This document shows positions 1,675 through 52,797 of a stretch of 64,000 bases of DNA, one piece after another. Position 1 is the stretch's first letter; each line of letters starts with the position of its first letter. The position numbers were made by a program, and so were the translations under genes. Under the pieces are notes generated by a model. That model was not told the DNA's origin. It worked only from the letters and a program-made list of their open reading frames with translations, and ran no database searches. The stretch comes from a virus, in IMG/VR virus record IMGVR_UViG_3300009703_004110, positions 186,001-250,000 of that record; one strand, written 5' to 3'.

Positions 1675-3345
1675 TTAATATTTGTGATTGTAGCCTGTAT
1701 CAGAAGGCAGACGATATCCGGCTGGTGGGCTCCATCCAACAGGATCTTCTGGTCTTTCTGCTACTGCGGCTTCTGTTCTAATTAACAAATTGGCTATACT
1801 TGTTGCATTAATAAGGGCTGTTTTAGTAACTTTCTTAGGGTCTATTACACCCATTTCAACTAAGTCACCGTACAGGCCCTCTGCTACATTATACCCGAAA
1901 TTTGGGTTAGCATCAGGGAGTATTTTGTTCAAAACTTCTTCTACATCTTCATCCGCATTCTTCAATATTTGAGCAATAGGTCTAACGCATGCGCCTAATA
2001 AAACTTCCGCAGCAGGTCTAAGATCCTCATCAAGTTCTGGTAGCTTCTTAATACGAACCCAATGAGCTGCACGAAGTAATGCACTACCTCCGCCAGCAAC
2101 ATATCCAGACTCAATGGCGCACTCTACGGCAAACATTGCATCATCGATTCTATCACCAGTTTGCCTAAGCTCTGCCTCAGTGGAGTATCCTACATATAAA
2201 ATTGTTCCGCATCCTTTGAGGTTGGCGATCCTACTGTCTATATCAATCTTGTCTCTATCGTTAATTAACTTTCTTTTGTCCTCTTGATATTCTTCCAGTC
2301 GTTCATTAATTTGCTCTTGGCTTCCCTGCGGTTCCAAAATCTTTGTTAGATTTCTATCAACGATTACCTGCTTTGCTGCGCCAAGATCATCAAGTTTGAT
2401 TTTGCTTAACGGAAGCCCACGTTCTTCGCTAACAACGACTGTTCCCACCTGCATGGCGATGTCCTCTATCCATCTGTCTTGATTGATATTCAATTTTCCA
2501 AAGCCATCATTAGGCAGTTTAATCGCGCACACACGTATGCGTCCCTGTATATGATTTTGAAGAAACACTTGAAGGGCCTCTTTCTTTAAGTCTTTACAGA
2601 TAATAAGCAAAGGAACATTTGCCTGGCTTAGCTCATCGAACAAAGCTTTGTTATCCTCAATGTGAGTAATTTCTCTGTCGCAAATTAAAATGCGGCAGTT
2701 ATTAAGCTCGGCCTTAGCCCTCCCTTTCTCCAAAAATCCGCGACTAATATATCCACTCTTTATCTCAAGACCGTTAACTTGTACTACATGACTTTCTATA
2801 CCGGGACGTGCCTGGGCTAAAACCATTCCATCTTCGCCTGCAATAGTATATGCCTGGGCAATTAACTCACCTAATTTCTCATCATTATTTGCAGATATGG
2901 TGGCAACGTGTTTTAAGGCATCAAAGTCCTCAACCGGAGAAGCTGCCGCATCTAAATATCCTAAGATATATGCCTCGGCCCAATCTATGCCTTTTTTGAA
3001 TTTCAATGGTGAATATCCTTTGTCCATCAGGGCGATGCCGTTTCTCAGTATTTCATGAGCTAATACAGTAGCAGTCGTCGTTCCATCACCAGCAATAGCG
3101 GCAGTTCTTCCGGCCACTTCCTTTACTAATTGGCATCCTAATTCCTCTATTGGGTCCTCTAATACAACCTCACGAGCCACACTTACACCGTCCTTAGTAA
3201 TGGTTGGTGCGCCAATATGCTTTTGCAAAATAACGTTCTTACCGTTTGGGCCCATGGTTACGCCAACGACCTTAGACAGTTTGGATACGCCACTTAACAA
3301 TCTCTCTCTTACTTCATTTCCGTGAACAAGTAGTTTGCCACCCAT
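1675..3345 (-). CDS. groEL: GroEL-type chaperonin, divergent copy 1
   Basis: Hsp60/GroEL family, 556 residues. ATP-site signatures are present: MGPNGKN near residue 31, [17 protein letters not shown] and AGGGSALL. The usual GGM-rich C-terminal tail is absent and replaced by a polar tail ending TGYNHKY. A second GroEL lies at 51196-52797 and the two differ strongly, so this is not a recent duplication. No GroES-like gene is recognisable nearby. Phage GroELs are known from some jumbo phages, where they fold virion proteins; whether this one works alone or with host GroES cannot be seen. The start has GAGG eight bases upstream. Confidence 0.9.
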   Translation of the reverse strand: MGGKLLVHGNEVRERLLSGVSKLSKVVGVTMGPNGKNVILQKHIGAPTITKDGVSVAREVVLEDPIEELGCQLVKEVAGRTAAIAGDGTTTATVLAHEILRNGIALMDKGYSPLKFKKGIDWAEAYILGYLDAAASPVEDFDALKHVATISANNDEKLGELIAQAYTIAGEDGMVLAQARPGIESHVVQVNGLEIKSGYISRGFLEKGRAKAELNNCRILICDREITHIEDNKALFDELSQANVPLLIICKDLKKEALQVFLQNHIQGRIRVCAIKLPNDGFGKLNINQDRWIEDIAMQVGTVVVSEERGLPLSKIKLDDLGAAKQVIVDRNLTKILEPQGSQEQINERLEEYQEDKRKLINDRDKIDIDSRIANLKGCGTILYVGYSTEAELRQTGDRIDDAMFAVECAIESGYVAGGGSALLRAAHWVRIKKLPELDEDLRPAAEVLLGACVRPIAQILKNADEDVEEVLNKILPDANPNFGYNVAEGLYGDLVEMGVIDPKKVTKTALINATSIANLLIRTEAAVAERPEDPVGWSPPAGYRLPSDTGYNHKY

Positions 3346-6409: not shown

Positions 6410-6969
6410 GATTTATTCTCCTTTGCTATGTATATTTGATACCATAACGCTAACGTGAAGATTGCGTCTTTGTCAGTATCTATGCTCTGCTCTTGTCTCC
6501 AAGCAACGCATCTATCCAGCCCCTTTGTTGGCTTTACAAATACGCCAGCCTTTAATGCAGCAATAGCATATTCTTTCAAAATATGGTCTGGTATCTCACT
6601 TGGTAGTGGGCCGCCGGGCGGAGAAAAGACCAAAATCTCCCTCTTAGATTCAACAGGCGGAAGGCTTAACAGTTTTTCTCTTAAAAAGTCAACCTGCTTA
6701 ATACCCATCCTAAGATAAGTTCTAATCATTGCTTCAGATCCTTCTCTCATAGGCACGATAACAAAAATACCATAACCATCTGGCGATGATTTGTATATAT
6801 CATCACGTCCACCAGAACGTTCTTTTTTAAACCGACCAGTTAATACCCTGACTAGATCATGTTCAACTTCAGTACCCTTTTCGCACGCATACGTCAACTC
6901 TGTATACGTAGCAGAAGGATGGTGTTGCCTGTATCTGTCCAATGCATGTCTAGAACAGCGGAAGATCAT
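6406..6969 (-). CDS. Hypothetical protein with HALDRYRQHH motif
   Basis: 187 residues. The start (FRCSRHALDRYRQHHP) resembles the N-terminal motif of small phage and toxin-like proteins that begin S.HA..R, and a second segment GIFVIVPM looks like a beta-strand. It begins immediately after the polymerase gene. Function unknown; family membership was not verified. Confidence 0.5.
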   Translation of the reverse strand: MIFRCSRHALDRYRQHHPSATYTELTYACEKGTEVEHDLVRVLTGRFKKERSGGRDDIYKSSPDGYGIFVIVPMREGSEAMIRTYLRMGIKQVDFLREKLLSLPPVESKREILVFSPPGGPLPSEIPDHILKEYAIAALKAGVFVKPTKGLDRCVAWRQEQSIDTDKDAIFTLALWYQIYIAKENKS

Positions 6970-9900: not shown

Positions 9901-10381
9901 TCTGACAAATAGCTGCAGCCTCATCGCCCTCTGTGATTAGAGTTTTAGCAACCAAACCATTAGAGCAGGCAGTTAGACAGAATAGACCTTGATTATATTT
10001 CTCAATATGTTCCCATCCAATTCGAGGGGTCTTCTTTCCCATATAACCAGAAACTTGATTTTGATAAGCCAGGAAGTTTAGATGTAATAAGTTACGATAT
10101 CCAACTTCATTTTGTGCCAACAGAACAAGGTGATGTGACTTCTTCGCAGAAAAGTCTTCTGTGAAGTATGCTTCCATGCCTGGAATTAATTTAACGCCAG
10201 TTTCTTGGCTGGCCTTCCAAGCGTCATAATGAGCCGTCATAGTTCCGTGATCAGTAACTGCTACGGCAGGGTGATCTACCTCTTTAGCTCTTTCAAATAG
10301 GTCGTGCACATTATTCATGCCGTCGAGAGGAGAGCCAACTTCGGTATGATTATGGAGACTTACAAATTTACCTTTGTTCAT
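6974..10381 (-). CDS. dnaE: DNA polymerase III alpha subunit, DnaE type
   Basis: 1135 residues, the usual length of a bacterial DnaE. The N-terminal PHP domain starts FVSLHNHTEVGSPLDGM and continues with AVTDHGTM. The C-family palm carries the catalytic motif PDIDTDFS near residues 430-436. Helix-hairpin-helix and OB-like regions follow, the OB part around TIRPKSKIRIEAIV to YLLEDAGGSTTT. No inserted proofreading exonuclease of the PolC kind is visible. It should be the phage's replicative polymerase. The start has GGAG seven bases upstream, placed inside a short upstream reading frame (10368-10451) that ends just past the polymerase start codon. Confidence 0.95.
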   Translation of the reverse strand: MNKGKFVSLHNHTEVGSPLDGMNNVHDLFERAKEVDHPAVAVTDHGTMTAHYDAWKASQETGVKLIPGMEAYFTEDFSAKKSHHLVLLAQNEVGYRNLLHLNFLAYQNQVSGYMGKKTPRIGWEHIEKYNQGLFCLTACSNGLVAKTLITEGDEAAAICQIQRFHSIFGDRFRLEIQPHALYAVNSKTGKPVDQMRLNQEMIRLSRDMGIPYVITCDAHYRDKEAAKYHDLMLAIKDKKAFDDPDRFKYGVQDMYLKTTDEIADFFGSRIATVGMKNSIDIMNACDEPSYLKPKGAMLPRYYAGDQDDYSSFKTWHQKNCASVEEDKAYLRFKCIQGFKEKLSHLDNEIRDEYWDRVTVELGVLEDKDFSSYMLIVADYTNWAKERMPVGPARGSAAGCLVAYLTGITDIDPITYDLIFERFHNNQKKSFPDIDTDFSNPGLVKEYIKERYGEDRVASISNWSTLSPKVIIKDVARSLRLGGDKTTAFKIANAITDTMGDEKTIQKEREKNKYFDAYMQDNPELNLYAEKLQNLTRNWSVHAAGVVIGEEPLSKIVPLRIEQKKDTGEALVVTQWEKTRCEDNGLIKMDLLGLKTLTVIDNTFKLIEKTTGEKLTIKDMDLKDKAVYDMIGKGGTAGVFQLESSLTPLCIKLKPRNIEDISIINAIGRPSCHPQERKKYIERRLRIKSPEYLHDSTRRALERTFGVLVYEEQAMFLAQDCAGWDLNQADALRKISKLKGKDPELVLRTEASFLKDCMSHSKMSYETAMDIWRTFIEPLGKYAFNKSHSISYSHISFYTAWLRCHYPIQFMCALINSEDPNAEKAQEYLSECANMDIEILPPYISSDGDYTIVDGGKILTGLSAVKGVGVTAIHDILGNGPYESLEWFFAKTSGRLVNKRVVQALAKAGAFDPYNIPRKTMFDQFSKFRTKVNTHLNKKKKAWIKNYTSELVNKNLLIPDKEHLDAMGVAEIQKNLKLYMSDCPILYTPAEETEEWSRKDILVAEQEVLGRTISGSLHEVFAGFFRGGSMVTAFGKIPTIRPKSKIRIEAIVKSKIKEFKIKNGRNAGQKFAKYLLEDAGGSTTTMIVWAGDYSKLKQVLTDGTPIKAICAVNEDRYTGENALSLSVLERAFGKGV

Positions 10382-44487: not shown

Positions 44488-45515
44488 CTATATTGTTTCA
44501 GGAGAATATGAGAATTTAACTTCTTCAATAAGCGGGCACCTACTTCTAACGATTCTATTGATCTCGAATTTCATGGTATATAGATTACTGAACCCTCTGA
44601 GTTTTCCATCTAAATATGCCGCATATTCTCCAACCGACTCTAACACGTCGCACTTACTTATAACAAGGTGCGTGGTTCCGGTAATGTTAATTGATTTGAT
44701 TAATCTGTCAAGATCCAAATATCGGACCTTTCTTCTGCGCCCTGTTGTTACTCCGAACTCTTGTCCTTCGTCTGCTATCCTAAGCAGTACAGGATCGTCT
44801 AATAGCGAGGGAGGAAATAGCGGGTCTTCACCACTTCTGGTATCATAAATTTTAGCAGCACCCCAAATCTCTCGTATTTTCTGTGGTGGAATACCAAGAC
44901 TGCAAGCTCCATATGGGAGTGTAATGCTTGATGTTACAAAGGGATAATTTCCATGATCTATATCAAGCCAGACACCCTGGGCCCCCTCACATAAAATTCT
45001 ACCCTGGAGAGTATCCCTGTACAAAAGATTCTCTGATAAAACTTGCTCAGCCAAAAGCCCTGTTCTTGCGTGCTTATCAGCATACACAGGAGCTATGCCT
45101 TTACTGGTAGTACCAAGTTTACCGGCGAGATTGTTCTTGTCAAACTCTATGTGTTTTTCTTGTACAATATGACAGTTTGGAGATACCTTTACTAATGAGG
45201 TGTCAAATCCATTCTCTTCTAAATAATCAAGCTCTGCTTGAAAAGACGGAGGATGCAAAACACACCCAGGACCAACTAAAGATAATTTTCCGTGGAAAAC
45301 TCCAGAAGGAACTAAATGTGTTTTGTATTTCTTACCGTCTACAAAAACAGTATGACCAGCGTTATTTCCACCGGCCCATCTTGCCACTATGTCATATTCT
45401 CTATGATCAGCCAAGTGACTGGTGATCTTACCTTTTGCTTCGTCGCTTTGTTGTTGTTAACCCCGAAGGGTCAACCCCAACATAAACCAATTACTACATC
45501 TGCGTAATCAATCAT
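44488..45515 (-). CDS. purA: Adenylosuccinate synthetase homologue, interrupted by a 29-base insert
   Basis: PurA joins IMP and aspartate using GTP. The frame opens at ATG 45515 (GGAGG upstream), giving MIDYADVVIGLCWG to 45474. It then hits TGA at 45471-45473. The PurA loop resumes at 45444 as DEAKGKITSHLADH and stays open to 44488 with all later family motifs (GTTSKGIAPVYADK, CEGAQGVWLDIDHGNYPFVT, TTGRRRKVRYLDLDRL). Leaving out 29 bases joins WG to DEAKGK and gives 332 residues, the length of short archaeal or phage PurA. The catalytic Asp is retained. No usable start precedes DEAKGK in the second frame. The gene is therefore bypassed, processed or recently broken. Confidence 0.8.
45445..45473 (-). 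other. 29-base insert with stop codon and UUCG hairpin inside purA (bypass-like)
   Basis: The insert shifts the frame and holds TGA in frame 0 and TAA in the resumed frame. Minus-strand RNA folds as GUUGACCC-UUCG-GGGUUAAC (45475-45456, eight pairs, one G-U). The last coding triplet GGT overlaps the stem base. T4 gene 60 has a comparable layout: glycine take-off codon, adjacent stop and hairpin in the skipped gap. No exactly matching landing codon exists; the triplet before the resume point is AGC. Confidence 0.6.
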
Positions 45516-45562
45516 GCCGGATAATCCTCCTATTTATTATGGTCAACAAGAAATATAACAAG

Positions 45563-45820
45563 TTATTCATCATCGAAGAGATTAATATTAGCCTGCGCTG
45601 TACCATCCTTAGCCAGAAGTACAAGCACTTCTCCTTCAAGGATTTCGCCATCTTTATATTCTGGTGGATTCGAATTTACTCTAGAACCTTCTGGAAGACT
45701 AACAATATATGCATCAGGGTCTCGCAAATCAGCAGAGCCCCACGGAGTAATGGCCTCTACAATTAAAACAGGCATATCATCGCCGCTAAGTAGTTTGCTG
45801 GCTAATTCGTGACTCGTCAT
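45563..45820 (-). CDS. Small acidic hypothetical protein, 85 residues
   Basis: Acidic protein with a beta-rich centre (LIVEAITPWGSADLRDPDAY) and acidic end. It lies just upstream of purA, separated by 47 bases that hold the purA ribosome site. No family recognised. Confidence 0.5.
   Translation of the reverse strand: MTSHELASKLLSGDDMPVLIVEAITPWGSADLRDPDAYIVSLPEGSRVNSNPPEYKDGEILEGEVLVLLAKDGTAQANINLFDDE

Positions 45821-51195: not shown

Positions 51196-52797
<1,602 letters not shown>

Follow-up and report, generated by a model that had tools for sequence, protein, structure and literature searches.

The record containing our window (the whole 64,000-nt stretch analysed) spans 332 kb and carries a PHROG-matched DNA polymerase, two GroEL genes and about 20 tRNA genes, and we therefore regard its source as a jumbo phage. 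The two GroEL genes differ from one another (1675-3345 and 51196-52797 (-)). One tRNA-Gly, with anticodon GCC, is encoded by the phage; a tRNA with the anticodon CUA (amber-reading) is also present in the phage (L107, G000:C1:303579-303651 (-)), and TAG is nonetheless a common end of long ORFs (34/198). The sole PurA match in the 332-kb record lies on the minus strand of the window, where a Shine-Dalgarno sequence (AGGAGG, 45526-45531) stands 10 nt upstream of the purA ATG. This start opens a first reading frame (ORF1, 45474-45515) of just 14 codons, ATG ... TGG GGT, which translates as MIDYADVVIGLCWG and supplies the N-terminal strand of PurA together with the Gly of the GDEGKGK nucleotide loop. 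The second frame (ORF2, 44488-45444, minus strand; 318 codons plus stop; PF00709, PHROG 1211) opens GAC GAA GCA AAA GGT AAG from 45444, and its match to adenylosuccinate synthetase starts at the Asp of the same loop. ORF2 by itself scores 256.5 bits against PF00709; with the 14 residues of ORF1 joined on, the score is 274.4 bits and the match reaches position 1 of the profile.

The two frames are separated by 29 nt (TGACCCTTCGGGGTTAACAACAACAAAGC, 45445-45473, minus strand) that comprise a stop codon, a hairpin and a putative landing triplet. The TGA (45471-45473) lies directly 3' of GGT, the last codon of ORF1 and the presumed take-off codon (45474-45476), and it forms part of the 5' arm of a UUCG stem; this inner stem-loop, GUUGACCC-UUCG-GGGUUAAC (45456-45475), has eight pairs, one of them G-U, and begins at the second base of GGT. 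The whole hairpin, outer helix included (45445-45487), is predicted to fold at -22.1 kcal/mol (mean of the shuffles, -9.6; z = -5.3; 0/200 shuffles as low), and the outer helix terminates on AGC (45445-45447), the triplet immediately 5' of the resume point and the likely landing site. The frame that is entered has a stop of its own within the insert (GGT TAA CAA CAA CAA AGC | GAC). The original prediction, that a 29-base gap with a length indivisible by three, stops in both frames and an 8-pair UUCG hairpin from the last codon splits MIDYADVVIGLCWG from a DEAKGK frame open for 318 residues, was thus correct in its coordinates, length and hairpin. Its caveat that an exactly matching landing codon is missing also holds for the window: AGC is unmatched to the take-off GGT and would pair, as a near-cognate, with two of the three anticodon bases of tRNA-Gly(GCC).

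We retrieved 54 IMG/VR loci with ORF2, most of which continue uninterrupted through WG|DE, and found an insert at the junction in six of them (four distinct sequences); a pattern search added two further distinct sequences. With near-duplicates merged and possible same-sample contig pairs counted once, the purA carriers number seven, the window included, and ORF2 is intact in the six other lineages, whose inserts measure 12-32 nt. Besides the 29 nt of the window, these are of 30 nt in L010 (TGACCTTCGGGTCAATCTCAATATAAAAGC), 32 nt in L013/L014 (TGACCTTCGGGTCAATCTCAACATAAAAAGGT), 12 nt each in L011/L054 and L057/L062 (TAAAACCCCAGT and TAAACCCCAGGC) and 13 nt each in L021 and L063 (TAACTACCCCGGC in both). 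All seven place TGA or TAA immediately after GGT, the take-off codon in 7/7, at the identical codon junction, and all seven end in an RGY triplet right before the Asp codon (GGC in three, AGC in two including the window, GGT in one and AGT in one). GGY is accordingly the commonest ending among the relatives, and in 4/7 lineages GGT would be exchanged for GGT or GGC, codons of the same tRNA. Scans of purA that dropped the stop-codon requirement returned the known carriers and chance matches only, with no insert lacking a stop, and among bacterial and archaeal genomes six pattern matches were obtained, none of them a genuine purA insert.

This comparison bears directly on whether the interruption is real. 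The window is one metagenomic contig, and a sequencing or assembly error might have produced such a gap in it; however, different but structured inserts occupy the same junction in contigs from several metagenomes, which refutes an error to the point of near certainty. Assembly variation and a fresh insertion, both listed as alternatives in the original prediction, are excluded by the same relatives.

The inserts fall into two types. The long ones (type A) each form one hairpin with z of about -5, in which the stop codon, right after the take-off codon, opens the 5' arm of the UUCG stem; the 12-13 nt inserts (type B; z -2.0 to -4.0) are unable to form a stop-containing UUCG stem and have TAA in or near the loop. 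The putative landing triplet stands at the hairpin foot in the window and in the short type, and 0-2 nt past the hairpin in L010 and L013. In 1.43 Mb from six related phage genomes, the motif GGN-stop-CC-UUCG-GG has two sites, both of them purA junctions, so that its presence in purA exceeds chance.

Could the insert simply be decoded into protein, by stop-codon readthrough or by frameshifting? In favour, the inserts of 12 and 30 nt have lengths divisible by three, and the L010 insert has a GGT in frame with ORF2; but the 13-, 29- and 32-nt inserts are not multiples of three, the entry frame repeatedly holds stops, and the added residues would break a strictly conserved active-site loop. As the lengths (12, 13, 29, 30 and 32 nt) fall in every class modulo 3, neither readthrough nor any single fixed frameshift is able to join the halves, and we consider decoding of the insert highly improbable. 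Sequence inspection of the carriers further revealed no ATG, GTG or TTG from the nearest in-frame stop to the Asp codon, and hence ordinary reinitiation is unable to supply the catalytic Asp.

A different possibility is that the gene is split or decaying, its products being a short peptide, an ORF2 protein that begins at an internal start and lacks its N-terminus, or both. A TTG lies 10 codons into the window ORF2 and could serve as that start, and L003, the nearest relative of the window, has an intact, insert-free purA; on the other hand, truncation would delete Gly-Asp-Lys of the nucleotide loop, and two diverged insert types have been kept across 63-69% protein identity with ORF2 intact and dN low. 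Rough Nei-Gojobori estimates gave dN of 0.17-0.33 among carriers, with dS of 1.4-4.3 or saturated, and non-carriers were alike; judged from these substitution patterns, the purA protein is under purifying selection in carriers, ORF2 included. Also against decay, the codons upstream of the junction are more constrained in carriers (GGT TTA NNN TGG GGT in 7/7, vs. GGT TTA in 2/15 of the non-carriers listed), and in the phosphoesterase genes described below no part of the gene is better conserved than the insert. We therefore give a split or decaying purA only a very slim chance.

The insert might instead be missing from the RNA, excised as a tiny intron or skipped by the polymerase, such that ribosomes see a continuous purA; the hairpin would bring both ends together, and the outcome at the protein level would be the same. 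Yet at 12-32 nt the inserts are far smaller than group I or II introns, and Rfam gave no family match at E<=1 within 45200-45700; the predicted fold is without a bulge-helix-bulge and places the 5' junction inside a stem; and every insert opens with a stop codon in the A site, for which an intron has no need. What the two ends often share, moreover, is a tRNA that reads both (GGU with GGC) and not identical bases, which points to decoding rather than to DNA or RNA cutting, and T4 gene 60, with the same geometry, is a known case of bypass (PMC5009743). RNA removal, which the original prediction had kept among its alternatives, is thereby made very unlikely by size, ends and fold. As to where the inserts came from, homing endonucleases beside purA were considered and rejected as a source: HNH_3 and GIY-YIG genes are present in some genomes, none adjacent to purA.

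We are left with programmed translational bypassing, the reading that the original prediction had favoured and that is best supported: inserts of 12-32 nt occupy one junction in deeply diverged lineages, and their ends fit a landing codon. Bypassing has been known for decades from one well-studied phage gene, T4 gene 60, the firmly established phage case, and a review asks why counterparts are so elusive (PMC5009743). T4 gene 60 and type A purA have in common a GGN take-off codon, an immediate stop within a short, C-G-closed UUCG stem, a non-coding gap and resumption in a new frame (PMC5009743, PMC11194080). The likeness to T4 that had been proposed stood up when checked on the T4 GenBank sequence: GGA|UAGCC-UUCG-GGCUA in T4 and GGU|UGACC-UUCG-GGUCA in L010 and L013 have the same 5-bp geometry, and the stop-in-5'-strand take-off stem-loop is present in the window, L010 and L013 and absent from the 12-13 nt type. 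The differences are equally clear. The gap is 50 nt with separate 5' and 3' stem-loops in T4 gene 60, but 12-32 nt with a single hairpin in purA, where, unlike in T4, the hairpin takes up the entire gap and has the putative landing triplet at its 3' foot or close by; T4 gene 60 needs a KKYK-type nascent-peptide signal (ORF1 of 46 codons), for which the purA ORF1, with 14-17 codons and no such motif, is too short; and the genes themselves differ, as does the landing, AGC in the window vs. a matched landing in T4.

Other known systems resemble the element in part. In the Magnusiomyces capitatus mitochondrial byp elements, short non-coding inserts are likewise bypassed in otherwise intact genes with imperfect landing matches (PMC5009743), and to this extent the suggested byp likeness stands; the many inserts per genome do not carry over. 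M. capitatus has 81 inserts in one mitochondrial genome, reportedly independent of mRNA context (PMC5009743), whereas each phage element combines a stop codon with a conserved hairpin, and the element-bearing genomes searched have one UUCG-type element apiece: the UUCG motif occurred once per genome in two type A genomes and once in each of 13 matching records. Split-gene tblastn among six related genomes gave antisense-frame noise only and no more inserts, in a search blind to very short first ORFs, that of purA included, and an ORF-gap scan of the whole genome was too noisy for use. Short hops are also described for two candidates, Prevotella loescheii plaA (29 nt) and the Streptomyces phage Hau3 terminase, which we liken to purA by their descriptions; in Hau3, Trp-Gly codons stand just before take-off, as in purA (PMC5009743). 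According to the review, plaA is without follow-up and Hau3 has been linked to UUA decoding (PMC5009743).

A scan through every IMG/VR contig for GGN and then TGACC-UUCG-GGTCA or TAGCC-UUCG-GGCTA yielded 166 stretches, most of them chance matches or in the wrong frame. Fourteen connect the halves of a single conserved protein: three are purA contigs, two are gene 60 homologues, and the new candidates are seven metallophosphoesterases, one large terminase and one family-9 glycosyltransferase (GT9). The two gene 60 homologues, both with a T4-like take-off stem, serve as positive controls (L249, around 6721-6770 on the plus strand, GGT to GGC over 45 nt; L342, minus strand, GGG to GGA). In the metallophosphoesterases, on seven phage contigs (L371, L320, L357, L395, L352, L394 and L325), the break follows TSDTHFG (or TSDLHLG) and the stop-hairpin element stands between TSDTHFG and HNNIIKYCNRPF, over 22 nt from GGT to GGT in 6/7 and over 26 nt from GGT to GGA in the seventh. 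The terminase break, LIGEG|IDYLVIDEMALI, holds a 26-nt UGA-UUCG element from GGC to GGC (L312, around 3224-3252, plus strand), and that of the glycosyltransferase-like gene, N-terminal RSGAFG|DNIILTPVIRFL, a 21-nt UAG-UUCG element from GGT to GGC (L350, around 10231-10254, plus strand). Take-off and landing codons are matched or synonymous in 6/7 phosphoesterases, the terminase and GT9. Pfam matches span the junction in the joined PurA, terminase and phosphoesterase; that of GT9 stops short of it, and the GT9 case is therefore based on resemblance to the motif RSGAFG|DNIILTP. The joined terminase and phosphoesterase align unbroken in the phage records listed, of 1407 and 1251 matching records, respectively.

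Among six of the phosphoesterase genes (61-86% protein identity), 2/22 insert columns vary vs. 54% of the columns downstream, and nowhere is the gene more conserved than in the insert and the bases just upstream. A scan with the TAA variant of the UUCG pattern found no convincing additional gene, and no DNA similarity to cultured phages was found for either the purA locus or the phosphoesterase element. The genes listed are a minimum, as the scans were confined to UUCG stems with two closing C-G pairs.

In the protein tree, purA carriers are scattered across one clade, a pattern that takes two or three gains or losses at the least. The short-insert carriers (L011, L057, L021 and L063) resemble one another in leader and N-terminus (ATG TCC ARG...). 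In this type, leaders and inserts are more alike between carriers than are the gene bodies downstream, which hints, from sequence likeness, that a 5' module with the element was exchanged by recombination among these carriers.

Taken together, a compact programmed translational bypassing element is, in our judgement, the best explanation of the window insert, with a probability of roughly 0.86. Counting against it are the near-cognate AGC of the window, the very short ORF1, a type B unable to form the stop-containing UUCG stem, and the several gains or losses that the tree demands, together with an insert-free L003. We infer from sequence the ribosomal jump, its landing triplet and efficiency and the role of hairpin folding, and picture them as follows. 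A ribosome would start at the purA ATG, synthesise MIDYADVVIGLCWG and arrive with GGU and its Gly-tRNA in the P site, the A-site stop codon being the first part of the UUCG stem-loop; in place of termination, peptidyl-tRNA(Gly) would release GGU while the hairpin folds, shortens the message and puts the triplet of its 3' foot under the tRNA. The tRNA would then re-pair at this triplet (GGY in 4/7 purA lineages, AGY in 3/7, where AGC or AGT would require an A-C mismatch), and decoding would restart at the Asp codon to give an uninterrupted WG-DEAKGK active-site loop. In the short type, the GGGG of UGG-GGU may pair directly with CCCC.

We found no description of these phage cases in the open-access literature. 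Across the genes in which such elements occur, we think it probable that phages bear a recurrent class of compact bypass elements of 12-32 nt, each with a stop, a hairpin and a landing Gly codon at or near its 3' foot, which lie at Gly codons of unrelated genes (purA, metallophosphoesterase, terminase and glycosyltransferase), show two architectures or more and operate with no long nascent-peptide signal; given this last property, hairpin folding alone may drive the jump. Natural elements down to 12 nt in several unrelated phage genes, of varied lengths and two architectures, form a comparative set that bears on what a ribosome needs in order to jump, namely whether a nascent peptide is required, how closely the landing triplet must match, and how far a hairpin can substitute for sliding, and they give a search rule for phage genes currently read as broken.
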